From Paenibacillus sp. Root52 (GTDB taxonomy: Bacteria > Bacillota > Bacilli > Paenibacillales > Paenibacillaceae): 64,000 bases of DNA. Of this stretch, positions 40,077 through 43,085 are shown piece by piece. The position numbers were made by a program, and so were the translations under genes. The stretch covers positions 124,001 through 188,000 of the forward strand of contig NZ_LMFO01000023.1 of NCBI RefSeq assembly GCF_001426865.1, given 5' to 3'. The first letter of the stretch is position 1. Every line of letters begins with the position of its first letter. The notes under the pieces are model-generated. The model did not search any database. It had not been told where the DNA came from and saw nothing but the letters and a program-made list of their open reading frames with translations.

Positions 40077-40360
40077 AAAAAAAGGCCTTTTCTCCCCAAA
40101 AGGGACGAAAAGACCGTGGTACCACCCTTGTTAGACAGCGATATTGCTTGAAGCTACTGGATTGCAATACGTCTGTCTCACTTTGTACGGAATAACGACC
40201 GTTAACCGTTTACCCCTACTGTCGCAGCACAACGTGCATCATCAAGTTCAGGGAACCGCTTCGGAGTGAATTTCGGCAGCCTTGTTCTACAGAAACGCTC
40301 TCAATCTACGGCGCTTCCTCCCTGTACAGAGGCACTGCTTACTTATCTCCATCATTGCGT
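40077..40360 (-). ncRNA. T-box leader of pheST
   Basis: Minus strand: stem I begins ATGGAGATAAGTA near 40355. The antiterminator core AAGGGTGGTACCACGG is at 40114-40129. The terminator CTTTTCGTCCC TTTT GGGGAGAAAAGG with a T run ends at 40077. The specifier should be a Phe codon; UUC triplets occur in the right part, but I could not fold stem I well enough to pick one. Uncharged tRNA-Phe should turn the operon on. Confidence 0.93.
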
Positions 40361-40442
40361 TTACATGTTAGAAAAACCTATATCAACAACCTTCAAGTAC
40401 GTACAGCCTCTCTTCGAGGCAAGCTGTTGATGATCGTTCATT

Positions 40443-40624: not shown

Positions 40625-42514
40625 TCAATTCGATTGATACAGTTGCCCCAGCCGCTGCTTAATACGCTGAATTTCCGCAGCTTCCTTCGCTCGTTCCTCT
40701 TCCGGTTCTTGCTTCGTCTGATCCTCGCTATCTCTTGTAGCACTATTCATTGGAGATAACAACTCAGACAGTCGCATCTCCAGACGCAATCGTTCATCAT
40801 CAGAATCTCTGTTCTGTAATGCCGATTCTCTTAGAACATGGGATTGTTCCCAGTCTTCTACCCCACCTTCGAAGTAAATCGCCGTACCATCTGATTTGAG
40901 GTCAAGTAACCGATTGGCAAGCACTTTGGTTAACATTCGATCATGTGAGACTAAAACGAATGCACCAGAAGCCTGTTTTAATACACTTTCCATAACTTCC
41001 TGGGTATCAATGTCGAGATAGTTGGTTGGTTCGTCTAGCACAAGCAGGTTAGCTCCTCCGAAATACAGCCGCAAGAAAGCCACTCTACACTTCTCTCCCA
41101 TACTCAAATCCCCAATTCGCTTGAATACATCTTCTCTAGAAAAGAGGAAACATCCCAAAATCGTACGTGCCGCACTCTGTGTCATGGAAGGCAGGCTAAG
41201 CAAGCTGTCCAGCAATGTCTGCTCTTCTGGAAGTCCTTCGAGTTCTTGCGAAAAGTAACCGATCTTCAGCCCGGGATTCCTTGTCACATCCCCTTTTACC
41301 GGATCAAGCTGTCCGATCATCAGTTTAAGCAATGTCGTCTTCCCCGTACCGTTGGGGCCACGTACAGCCAGACGATCTCCTCGTTCCACTGCAACGTTCA
41401 ATCCATGAAATAGAGGATTCCCTACAGGATAAGCAAACTCAACCTGATTCAATCTTAGGAGCTGGCGTGCACCGAGAGAATTCATATTCAGGTCCATGTT
41501 TAACCGAGTAGCCTCTCGCGGTTTATCCACGCGCTCGTTCTCCAACCGTTCAAGTTGCTTTTGCTTGGCATGGTAACGAGAGATGTTCTTGTTTGCCTTG
41601 GCTTTGTAAAAGCTCTGGGTGATTTTGACCTCAACGTCGGTTGCTGAATTATGCGCTTTATGAAACCACTGTTGATAGTTGCGAATTGTCTCTTCTAATG
41701 CCTTCTTCTCTAATTCTTGTTTACGGTACAGAGCCTCCTGCTCCCGTAATTCCCGTTCTTTATGGCCTTTGTATGCGGTGTACCCACCCTTGTATTTGAC
41801 GAGTTTGTCTGAGTTAAACTCAATGACCCCTGTTGCCACTTCATCAATAAACGTTCGGTCATGTGACACAAACAAGAGTGTGCCTGTATAAGCGGATAGC
41901 CAGCCCTCTAACCAGCGCATGCTTTCTTCGTCCAAGTGGTTCGTTGGCTCATCCAGAATGAGAAACTTCGGTTTACTGACCAATAATCCAGCAAGCCTAG
42001 CTTTTGTCTTTTGTCCACCACTCAAAGAACCATAGGGTCTGCTCCAATGCTCAGACGTTAATCCAAGCCGTGTTAAGACCTTCTCAACCTCAGTCTCCCA
42101 CATATAACCGTTCAATTGCTCGTATTCTTCCATCGCTACCGTGTAGGCTTCCATCCATTGCTGTTCTTCTCCGGCACCGCACGAACTTAAACGTCCTTCC
42201 AGTTCCGCGAGCTTACGCTTGACCTCGTAAATTTGCCCACTCTCCTGACGGACTGCATCCAGCACCTTCATCCCAGGTTCGATCTGAGAGCGTTGGCGCA
42301 TAAATCCCCAGTTCCGCTCTGGTATAGCACGCTCGATCCTTCCTCCGCCCTCTTCTTCCCCTATAATCATGCGCAGCAAAGTCGTTTTGCCACAACCGTT
42401 AGGTCCCAGGATCGCCAGTCTCTCCCCTTCATTAATTTCCAGCTGCAATCCTGTAAACAATTCTATTCCGTTCCATTCCTTAGATACTTCATGTAAGCGC
42501 ACCAATGTCATCAT
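40625..42514 (-). CDS. ABC-F ATPase (ribosome-associated, antibiotic-resistance type layout)
   Basis: 629 residues; ATG at 42514 or 42511, AAGGA nine bases before. Two ABC domains without membrane parts: Walker A GPNGCGKTT (37-45) and GPNGTGKTT (near 385); signatures LSGGQKTKARLAG and the altered LSMGEKCRVAF; Walker B FLILDEPTNHLDEE and LLVLDEPTNYLDI. The linker of about 80 residues between them is charged and helical (WFHKAHNSATDVEVKITQ), the region that reaches the ribosomal P site. A 90-residue coiled C-terminal extension follows. Such proteins either regulate translation or protect ribosomes from antibiotics (Vml/Msr/Lsa groups). The attenuator-like leader favours the protection type; resistance itself is not shown by sequence. 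Confidence 0.85.
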   Translation of the reverse strand: MMTLVRLHEVSKEWNGIELFTGLQLEINEGERLAILGPNGCGKTTLLRMIIGEEEGGGRIERAIPERNWGFMRQRSQIEPGMKVLDAVRQESGQIYEVKRKLAELEGRLSSCGAGEEQQWMEAYTVAMEEYEQLNGYMWETEVEKVLTRLGLTSEHWSRPYGSLSGGQKTKARLAGLLVSKPKFLILDEPTNHLDEESMRWLEGWLSAYTGTLLFVSHDRTFIDEVATGVIEFNSDKLVKYKGGYTAYKGHKERELREQEALYRKQELEKKALEETIRNYQQWFHKAHNSATDVEVKITQSFYKAKANKNISRYHAKQKQLERLENERVDKPREATRLNMDLNMNSLGARQLLRLNQVEFAYPVGNPLFHGLNVAVERGDRLAVRGPNGTGKTTLLKLMIGQLDPVKGDVTRNPGLKIGYFSQELEGLPEEQTLLDSLLSLPSMTQSAARTILGCFLFSREDVFKRIGDLSMGEKCRVAFLRLYFGGANLLVLDEPTNYLDIDTQEVMESVLKQASGAFVLVSHDRMLTKVLANRLLDLKSDGTAIYFEGGVEDWEQSHVLRESALQNRDSDDERLRLEMRLSELLSPMNSATRDSEDQTKQEPEEERAKEAAEIQRIKQRLGQLYQSN

Positions 42515-42588
42515 GAGGCCTCATCCTTCCCGCTTCCAAAATAGGTTGTGCGGTCATTGTAGGAAATGCAATCACCTTATTTCCTAAC

Positions 42589-42618
42589 AAAAAAACCGCT
42601 GGCATCAGCCGGCGGTTG
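42589..42618 (-). terminator. Attenuator-type terminator before the ABC-F gene
   Basis: Minus strand: AACCGC C GGC TGAT GCC A GCGGTT followed by seven T, 75 bases before the ABC-F start codon and inside the transcript that begins near 42888. Its position inside the leader means transcription must pass it to express the gene. Confidence 0.75.
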
Positions 42619-42888
42619 GGCAATTCAGGATTGGAAAAAGCATCACAAAACAGGCAAAAGATATCCCCAAGTATAAGCAAATAAACCCACACATCGGGTA
42701 TGGCCATCTAGCCTACTTGCACTACACTTGATCCCATTGCTGAATTTGGACACACGGATCCCCTCATTGCTCAGCCGGACTGGCTGACTGCGTCATCAAT
42801 AAACGTCTGCAGTTAACTTGGGTTCAGTTCATGTGTCTTACTTCATGGGACGTATGGTTACCTCTCATTCATGTGTAGTATCAATTTC
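42619..42888 (-). promoter_or_regulatory. Regulatory leader of the ABC-F gene with short ORFs
   Basis: About 270 bases before the terminator. A hairpin TCAGCC/GGCTGA (42782-42787 with 42771-42776) repeats the 8-base TCAGCCGG also found inside the terminator (42605-42612), so the upstream TCAGCC could pair with either GGCTGA. Short frames lie in series: MTQSASPAEQ (42764-42796), a GTG-started 15-mer (42708-42755) with GAGGGG before it, and a frame beginning MAIPDVWVYLL at 42707 that crosses the terminator. The layout suits ribosome-mediated attenuation, as known for B. subtilis vmlR. Confidence 0.55.
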
Positions 42889-42894
42889 TCTGTT

Positions 42895-42922
42895 ATTGTA
42901 ACAGATGTTGGTAAAAAATCAA
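42895..42922 (-). promoter_or_regulatory. Promoter of the ABC-F transcript
   Basis: TTGATT and TACAAT (minus strand) with a 16-base spacer, nearly 400 bases before the coding start. Confidence 0.6.
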
Positions 42923-42969
42923 AGGTAGCATCGTGATCATTCTCCAGATCCTAATCGGAACTGAACCCG

Positions 42970-43014: not shown

Positions 43015-43085
43015 AGCGGGTGATGGGAATCGAACCCACGCTATTAGCTTGGAAGGCTAAAGTTCTACCATTGAACTACACCCGC
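43015..43085 (-). tRNA. tRNA-Gly (anticodon UCC)
   Basis: Minus strand, 71 bases. Acceptor GCGGGTG/CACCCGC, D-loop AGTTCAATGGTAGAAC, anticodon stem TTAGC/GCTAA around CTTCCAA (anticodon TCC), T-loop GGGTTCGATTCCC. The discriminator base is T and CCA is not encoded. A terminator follows directly, so it is a single-tRNA unit. Confidence 0.97.

Follow-up and report, generated by a model that had tools for sequence, protein, structure and literature searches.

A two-codon reading frame as the probable ribosome sensor of an attenuator ahead of a Sal-related ABC-F gene in Paenibacillus

In Paenibacillus sp. Root52, an ABC-F gene related to Sal is preceded by an RNA leader that comparative evidence marks as a real and widely conserved attenuator, within which an open reading frame (ORF) of two codons probably senses antibiotic-jammed ribosomes and switches on the ribosome-protecting gene downstream. 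The probability that transcription is attenuated here by the sensing of ribosomes, in the manner of vmlR, may be put at roughly 0.8. Comparison among relatives shows that the ORF, the helices around it, a long-range pairing with the terminator and the class of the ABC-F protein have been conserved. From these patterns we infer translation of the ORF, induction, the class of drug and ribosome protection. Attenuation of ABC-F genes through upstream ORFs (uORFs) is already well known (PMC9226507, PMC10201436, PMC12421871), and the leader looks like an uncatalogued version of this known kind of attenuator, widespread in a bacterial order.

In the proposed mechanism, a 30S subunit would dock on a Shine-Dalgarno (SD) sequence 14 nt ahead of the AUG and initiate on Met-Lys-stop. 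With no drug present, the ribosome would make one peptide bond, terminate and depart, whereupon two helices, P1 and P2, would close, the hairpins P3 and P4 would be held in a three-way junction, and the terminator would form. A blocker of the peptidyl transferase centre would freeze the ribosome on the start codon and so keep P1 and P2 open. The P4 region could then pair with the 5' arm of the terminator before the 3' arm is made, RNA polymerase would read through into the ABC-F gene, and the protein would protect the ribosome.

The gene, its protein and their decay

The whole attenuator leader and its gene lie on the minus strand of the window, the 64,000-nucleotide stretch of DNA analysed here. 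The ABC-F ORF of the initial annotation is confirmed; it encodes 629 amino acids and runs from 42514 to 40625, and the closest named record found, Paenibacillus tundrae DS1314, carries an ABC-F protein 96% identical. On one flank stands a tRNA gene (43015-43085) and on the other a T-box (40098-40364), which was rejected as the identity of the leader because it precedes the next gene; the ORFs that follow it we take to be pheS and pheT. At several loci of the genus, tRNA-like and T-box-like sequences were again seen by eye beside the ABC-F gene.

By sequence, the protein is not EttA or Uup, has a linker of the resistance type and groups with Sal, and on this point the initial annotation is supported. 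Among NCBIfam models it exceeds the broad ribosomal-protection model (465, cut-off 380) and misses the named families Vga (433/725), Sal (NF000169, 382 bits/725), Uup (312/900) and EttA (295/599). The interdomain linker measures 113-114 residues, compared over the same alignment region with 87 in Uup, 108 in Sal, 112 in the VmlR types and 117 in VgaA-LC; among the nine other ABC-F proteins examined from the same genome it measures 84-97 in seven, 120 in L036 and 117 in L039. In a tree that included four solved relatives, had no EttA, Lsa or OptrA row and from which L100 was dropped for its wrong frame, the protein groups with Sal at a support of 99/97, the Sal branch being long (1.68). Sal itself (PMC8887462) is the nearest of the four solved relatives, at 35% identity. 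The VmlR and VmlR2 types form a clade of their own (100/100) with the window protein outside it, which excludes a VmlR/VmlR2 orthologue, and Uup groups with L043 instead; together with the missed cut-offs, this rejects an EttA/Uup housekeeping identity. Murina et al. (2019) predicted that the unnamed Firmicutes groups FAF1-2 are resistance factors (PMC6723617).

A second ABC-F gene of the same genome, L036 (G000:C1:1057749-1059173, minus), belongs to the Msr family (711 bits, cut-off 680) and has upstream of it, by eye, a 14-codon ORF, MIHAIRLRFLTLNR, together with a GGAGCAGUCUGUCC motif. This ORF closely resembles MTHSMRLRFPTLNQ/MTHAMRLRFPTLNQ, leader peptides of erm genes that mediate stalling by macrolides (PMC4335068). 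One genome thus carries a long RLR ORF before a macrolide-type gene and two codons before a Sal-like gene.

The ABC-F gene is broken in at least four genomes of the genus. In G062 and G032 the ORF has lost its middle, so that the two ATPase halves run together; in G015 it is split in two and carries a stop, while in G006 it is nearly all gone (the decayed loci are L071, L073, L082 and L035). The leader is damaged in three of these four, the AUG having become AUU in G062 and the 3' strand of P1 having been lost in G015 and G006, whereas in G032 an essentially intact leader stands beside the broken gene; the three speak for the proposed mechanism and the fourth against it.

These losses bear on the strongest rival reading, that the signal is slow initiation in general, as from ribosome defects or ppGpp, and that the ABC-F protein is a repair or quality-control factor and not a resistance protein. 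That vmlR of Bacillus subtilis is induced by ribosome assembly defects as well (PMC9226507) speaks for such a signal, as does the near-universal presence of the leader in the genus, unlike that of many patchy resistance genes. Linker length and tree nevertheless ally the protein to Sal and separate it from Uup, and at least five genomes of the genus have a broken gene or none, so that this reading keeps perhaps one chance in several.

The micro-ORF and the helices around it

The putative sensor is the micro-ORF AUG-AAG-UAA (Met-Lys-stop; 42838-42846, minus), preceded at 14 nt by the SD sequence GAGAGG (42861-42866, minus), the one recognized by its conservation across leaders and the other by its conserved spacing. 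The leaders examined across the order numbered 78, gathered in sets of 35, 40 and 3, and a micro-ORF was found in 77; in L130 it was sought within 700 nt and none was found. Spacing between SD and AUG, measured in 76 leaders, is 14 nt in 37, 13 in 13, 12 in 14 and 11 in 12. With 18 of the 77 starts placed by eye and the rest by a pattern that itself admits only ORFs of two or three codons with one of a few permitted second codons, the micro-ORFs are, stop excluded, two codons long in 49 leaders, three in 15 (64 of 77 with two or three), five in 5, six in 1, eight in 2 and nine in 5, the window having two codons and its SD at 14 nt. The start is AUG in 76 and GUG in one; the stop is UAA in 72, UGA in 4 and UAG in 1. 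The encoded peptides are MK (39), ME (5), MNN (5), MKYVA (4), MKN (3), MEQ (3), MN (2) and MI (2), along with 14 that occur once each, such as MKH, MYN, MKK, MKQ, MDIHDCSL and MKYTAHVLI. Since codons and length vary while frame, start and stop stay, the pattern is that of a translated ORF.

Among leaders of the genus, AUGAAGUAA hardly varies, and AUG-(A/G)AG-UAA is present at all 26 named Paenibacillus loci (MK at 25, ME at one), a count that leaves out a 27th locus, a relative at 27%. An in-frame ORF of 11 codons in clade 2 (MKRKVTIRPMK) was rejected as a candidate: by eye, clade 1 has an in-frame TGA, and L035 and L073 no longer have the start. In the related genus g20 (L101-L104) the ORFs have nine codons, and in minimum free energy (MFE) folds the SD GAGAGG pairs with CCUC or CCUU inside the ORF, possibly a variant that hides the start; L102 pairs otherwise.

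The micro-ORF sits where P1, which lies between the SD and the AUG, meets P2. All strands named here are on the minus strand. P1, found by MFE folding and a strand-swap test, joins 42842-42861 (5' strand, the top of which pairs the AUG in the window fold) to 42719-42744 (3' strand). P2, known from folds and the same kind of test, has its 5' strand (GACACAUG and CCC) at 42820-42837 and its 3' strand at 42749-42762, the latter found by motif search and folding inside a conserved motif that here reads GGGAUCCGUGUGUC. Within P2, folds place the P3 hairpin of a three-way junction (42787-42813) and the P4 hairpin (CAGCC ... GGCUG, 42772-42786), which folds and pairing tests make part of the antiterminator. 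The window fold has the AUG closing P1 at its top, with the stop codon in the loop ahead of P2; in the centroid fold of L024 the entire micro-ORF lies in a loop. P1 and P2 are both present in the MFE structures of 50 of 55 leaders, P1 being absent from those of L101-L104 and L128, and P3 and P4 hairpins are common inside P2 in folds (by eye, uncounted). Here and below, the sets compared are hand-picked representatives of the 78 leaders: 55 for MFE folding, 45 for masking, 43 for the P1 and P2 swaps and 40 for the swap of the P4 region against the terminator arm.

According to the sequence comparisons, P1, P2 and the long-range pairing between P4 and the terminator are kept by complementarity. 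Because MAFFT was unable to align the 3' strands of P1 across clades, pairing was tested through strand swaps between species and through a 16-row alignment. Among 43 leaders, P1 strands paired with their own partners reach -17.7 kcal/mol against -13.3 when swapped (sd 0.41) and P2 strands -17.6 against -14.5 (sd 0.40), the corresponding figures for an upstream control being -11.8 and -11.3 (sd 0.39). Compensating changes in P1 appear as CAUACGUCC/GGACGUAUG in L024, CUGCGUCC/GGACGCAG in L029 and CACACGUAUC/GAUACGUGUG in L030. In the 16-row alignment no more than 61.7% of the P1 cells are paired, since the register of the helix slips from row to row; of 500 shuffles, 6 reach the covariation score and 2 the paired percentage, and RNAalifold recovers P2 alone. 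Of 77 Paenibacillales leaders, 58 contain the motif pattern GG[AG][AT]N2-6TG[TC]C, for which shuffles give 9%.

Such structure might suggest a ligand-binding riboswitch, in which the three-way junction would bind a small molecule, perhaps an antibiotic, and the letters of the micro-ORF would be part of the aptamer. The junction does carry conserved stretches (GGGAUACGURUGUC, and AA ahead of P3), all six leader sequences tested fold better than shuffles, and AUGAAGUAA is almost fixed within the genus. Across the order, though, junction sequences vary between genera, and start, frame and stop are kept while codons and length (2, 3, 5, 6, 8 or 9) change, which is unlike an aptamer loop and makes the riboswitch improbable. 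Less probable still is the sensor first proposed, stalling on a 10-codon ORF and the ORFs that follow it across the P3/P4 hairpins: the ORF exists (MTQSASPAEQ, 42796-42764) and the hairpin it spans belongs to the antiterminator, but its ATG and length are kept at just 10 of 26 named loci, the others being frameshifted or having ATA or TTG starts, and the short ORFs of the initial annotation thus give way to AUG-(A/G)AG-UAA, kept at 26 of 26.

Terminator, antiterminator and the computed switch

An intrinsic terminator, found by terminator search and folding, occupies 42589-42617 on the minus strand (stem 42617-42594, T run 42595-42589), 75 nt ahead of the gene, where the initial annotation had put it. 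The repeated 8-mer that it reported, TCAGCCGG, likewise occurs twice, at 42605-42612 and 42771-42778 of the plus strand. Its promoter is less secure: a promoter-like site (TTGATT, 16 nt, TG, TACAAT; 42895-42922, minus) is present as a consensus match only (9/12), but such sites are not in excess in the region, 5 being found against 6.6 expected in shuffles. A similar site recurs, by eye, in relatives within the genus. The sequence from 42890 to 42500 folds better than all of 100 dinucleotide shuffles (z -2.5).

In the fold predicted for the ribosome-bound state, the left strand of the antiterminator (42753-42782, minus) pairs with 42640-42606, and this right strand (42606-42640, minus) covers the 5' arm of the terminator. 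When the P4 regions and terminator arms of 40 leaders were exchanged, own partners reached -17.3 kcal/mol against -14.5 for swapped ones, and none of 20,000 permutations did equally well, a value too good because the leaders are kin by descent. The letters of the 8-mer itself vary, GGCTGA becoming GGCGGA in L003, L006, L009 and L013 and clade 2 differing again. The competing pairings of the initial annotation are therefore right in substance, since complementarity between P4 and the terminator is kept in relatives, although the 8-mer that suggested them is not conserved. With a structured leader conserved and its alternative pairings kept, the attenuator proposed ahead of the ABC-F gene is supported.

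The switch itself is a computed one. A ribosome was mimicked by forbidding pairing from AUG-18 to AUG+15 in transcripts ending before the 3' arm of the terminator. Under this mask, 26 of 45 leaders gain more than 0.1 in pairing of the terminator 5' arm; the other 19 show no such gain, and in two of them (L029 and L140) the pairing falls. In the window it goes from 0.39 to 0.73. Shuffled leaders give 14 rises and 18 falls in 135. Masks placed elsewhere give 47 rises and 31 falls in 241, and many of those rises come from masks on P2; a mask on P2 alone often works equally well, so that any opener of P2 would do. In 37 of the 45 leaders the predicted partner is centred between +57 and +95 from the AUG, that is, in or near P4. 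An earlier and larger run over 66 leaders, which left out 12 of the 78 because no anchor could be set at the terminator or the uORF, gave 41 rises and 2 falls. As a positive control, the same computation on vmlR-type leaders gave 26 rises and no falls among 29, L170 having been dropped for lack of an anchor. When the full-length leader of the window is folded at equilibrium, the terminator persists with and without the ribosome and no switch is seen; the model consequently needs co-transcriptional timing. A candidate pause motif, TTATTT (42684-42679), lies between P1 and the terminator and fits TTNTTT, the motif reported for NusG-dependent pausing in vmlR (PMC9226507); some relatives within the genus have, by eye, TTCTTT at this position.

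Distribution and kinship with known leaders

No Rfam family supplies an identity: cmscan with Rfam 15 over 42450-42960 returned only OmrA-B and NsiR1, around the terminator and far under gathering. Among the best-ranked titles and abstract openings of the literature on Paenibacillus and ABC-F leaders, supplements and subscription papers aside, the leader is undescribed. A covariance model built from six leaders of the genus (R1) detects the element in all but one of 75 genus genomes (74), at one place in each save for two extra matches (E 0.30 and 0.52); its matches in G009, G030 and G075 are weak (E 0.1-0.3) yet stand at the ABC-F position. The remaining genome, G018, has no element by R1 and no close orthologue (best E 1.5e-90). 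Within the genus, orthologues are either 75-96% or 52-60% identical, forming two groups, and those of other genera, among the identities listed or computed, lie at 44 to 58%; of 392 genomes sampled across the order, 181 have a match at E <= 1e-110, and these belong to 17 of 49 genera. The upstream regions of the orthologues have a structured leader in common.

Offered 21 other Paenibacillales leaders, R1 found five (L106, L109, L125, L107 and L111) and missed L033 and L034. A second model, R2, built from 16 Paenibacillales leaders only, matches L033 and L034 weakly and misses the leader of the window, so that no single model covers the family. In 198 genomes of the order, R2 gave one match each in 39 at E <= 0.1. 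Of 13 places opened, 8 precede an orthologue at 44-49%, and one, in G216 (E 0.0016), precedes a different ABC-F gene with AUG-AAG-UAC-UAA in its leader; this locus of another genus (L223, G216:C1:4805500-4808250) encodes a protein 36% identical to the Msr-family protein and 33% to that of the window. The other four, weak matches in G020, G157, G238 and G135 (E 0.007-0.09), were set aside as chance, with no ABC-F ORF downstream in the stretch examined.

The best-studied system of this kind is vmlR of Bacillus subtilis, where toeprints, mutants of uORF and SD, and antibiotic induction back the mechanism (Takada et al. 2022, PMC9226507). The vmlR leaders and that of the window have in common a far SD (13-16 nt in 29 vmlR-type leaders), a uORF of two or three codons bulged between two helices, and a downstream terminator with an antiterminator freed by a ribosome on the uORF, which for the window is a computed feature; the vmlR-type leaders L158-L162 even read MK-stop, as the window does. 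This common layout, and a computation that works on 26 of 29 vmlR-type leaders, bear out the analogy first drawn with vmlR. The window differs in that its P2 bears a three-way junction, its antiterminator uses the P4 region and its ABC-F protein belongs to another clade, and uORFs of Paenibacillales leaders reach nine codons. R1 found none of 12 vmlR-type sources; R2, run over 221 kb, found 5 of 12 vmlR-type leaders (L157, L160, L156, L158 and L168; E 0.0019-0.13), the window itself being missed, and matched none of 12 Sal-like loci at the leader.

Comparable leaders are described for known resistance ABC-F genes. VmlR2, CplR and LsaA are described as preceded by very short uORFs, MK[L/Q], MR[I/M] and MAGN, in PMC10201436, the main text of which does not contain the word Paenibacillus. 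The ARE5 leaders of Streptomyces are described as stalling at the start codon with lincosamide, streptogramin A or pleuromutilin and as having a terminator and an antiterminator (PMC12421871), and are likened to the window by that description, for genes of Streptomyces. For Sal, the main text of PMC8887462 contains neither 'leader' nor 'attenuat'. Among Sal-like leaders, L198-L202, L205, L208 and L211 have, by eye, an SD that precedes the AUG by about 15 nt, with MIIR, MDIR and MDIQ among the ORFs. The motif GG[AG][AT]N2-6TG[TC]C stands behind the short ORF in 9 of 15 (L198-L212; positions by eye), elsewhere only in 5 and nowhere in 1, against a shuffled expectation of 18% per 660 nt.

To judge from sequence, then, the vmlR-type and several Sal-like leaders share the layout of the Paenibacillales leaders. 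The likeness favours common descent with the vmlR-type RNA and is not proof of it. A bolder reading, to which somewhat less than an even chance may be given, is that one ancient attenuator RNA, predating the split between VmlR, Sal-like and Paenibacillales ABC-F proteins, has travelled with resistance ABC-F genes through the Bacilli. If so, the constant parts would be a far SD, a start where P1 meets P2, a stop two to nine codons on and a 3' GGGAUACGURUGUC, the remainder of the RNA being free to drift; two codons would suffice because arrest at the start codon, and not the peptide, is what is read.

If the leader works as proposed, almost all sampled genomes of this Paenibacillus genus would be predicted to carry a resistance switch that can be induced. 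The leader also offers a natural library of sensors of two to nine codons within one RNA frame, a means of asking which features of a ribosome stalled at initiation trip an attenuator, as well as a search image for unnoticed resistance ABC-F genes: an SD, 11-16 nt, AUG and a short ORF, then GGGAUACGURUGUC. What is bold in the proposal is the sufficiency of two codons, together with the possibility that this RNA has accompanied resistance ABC-F genes since ancient times.
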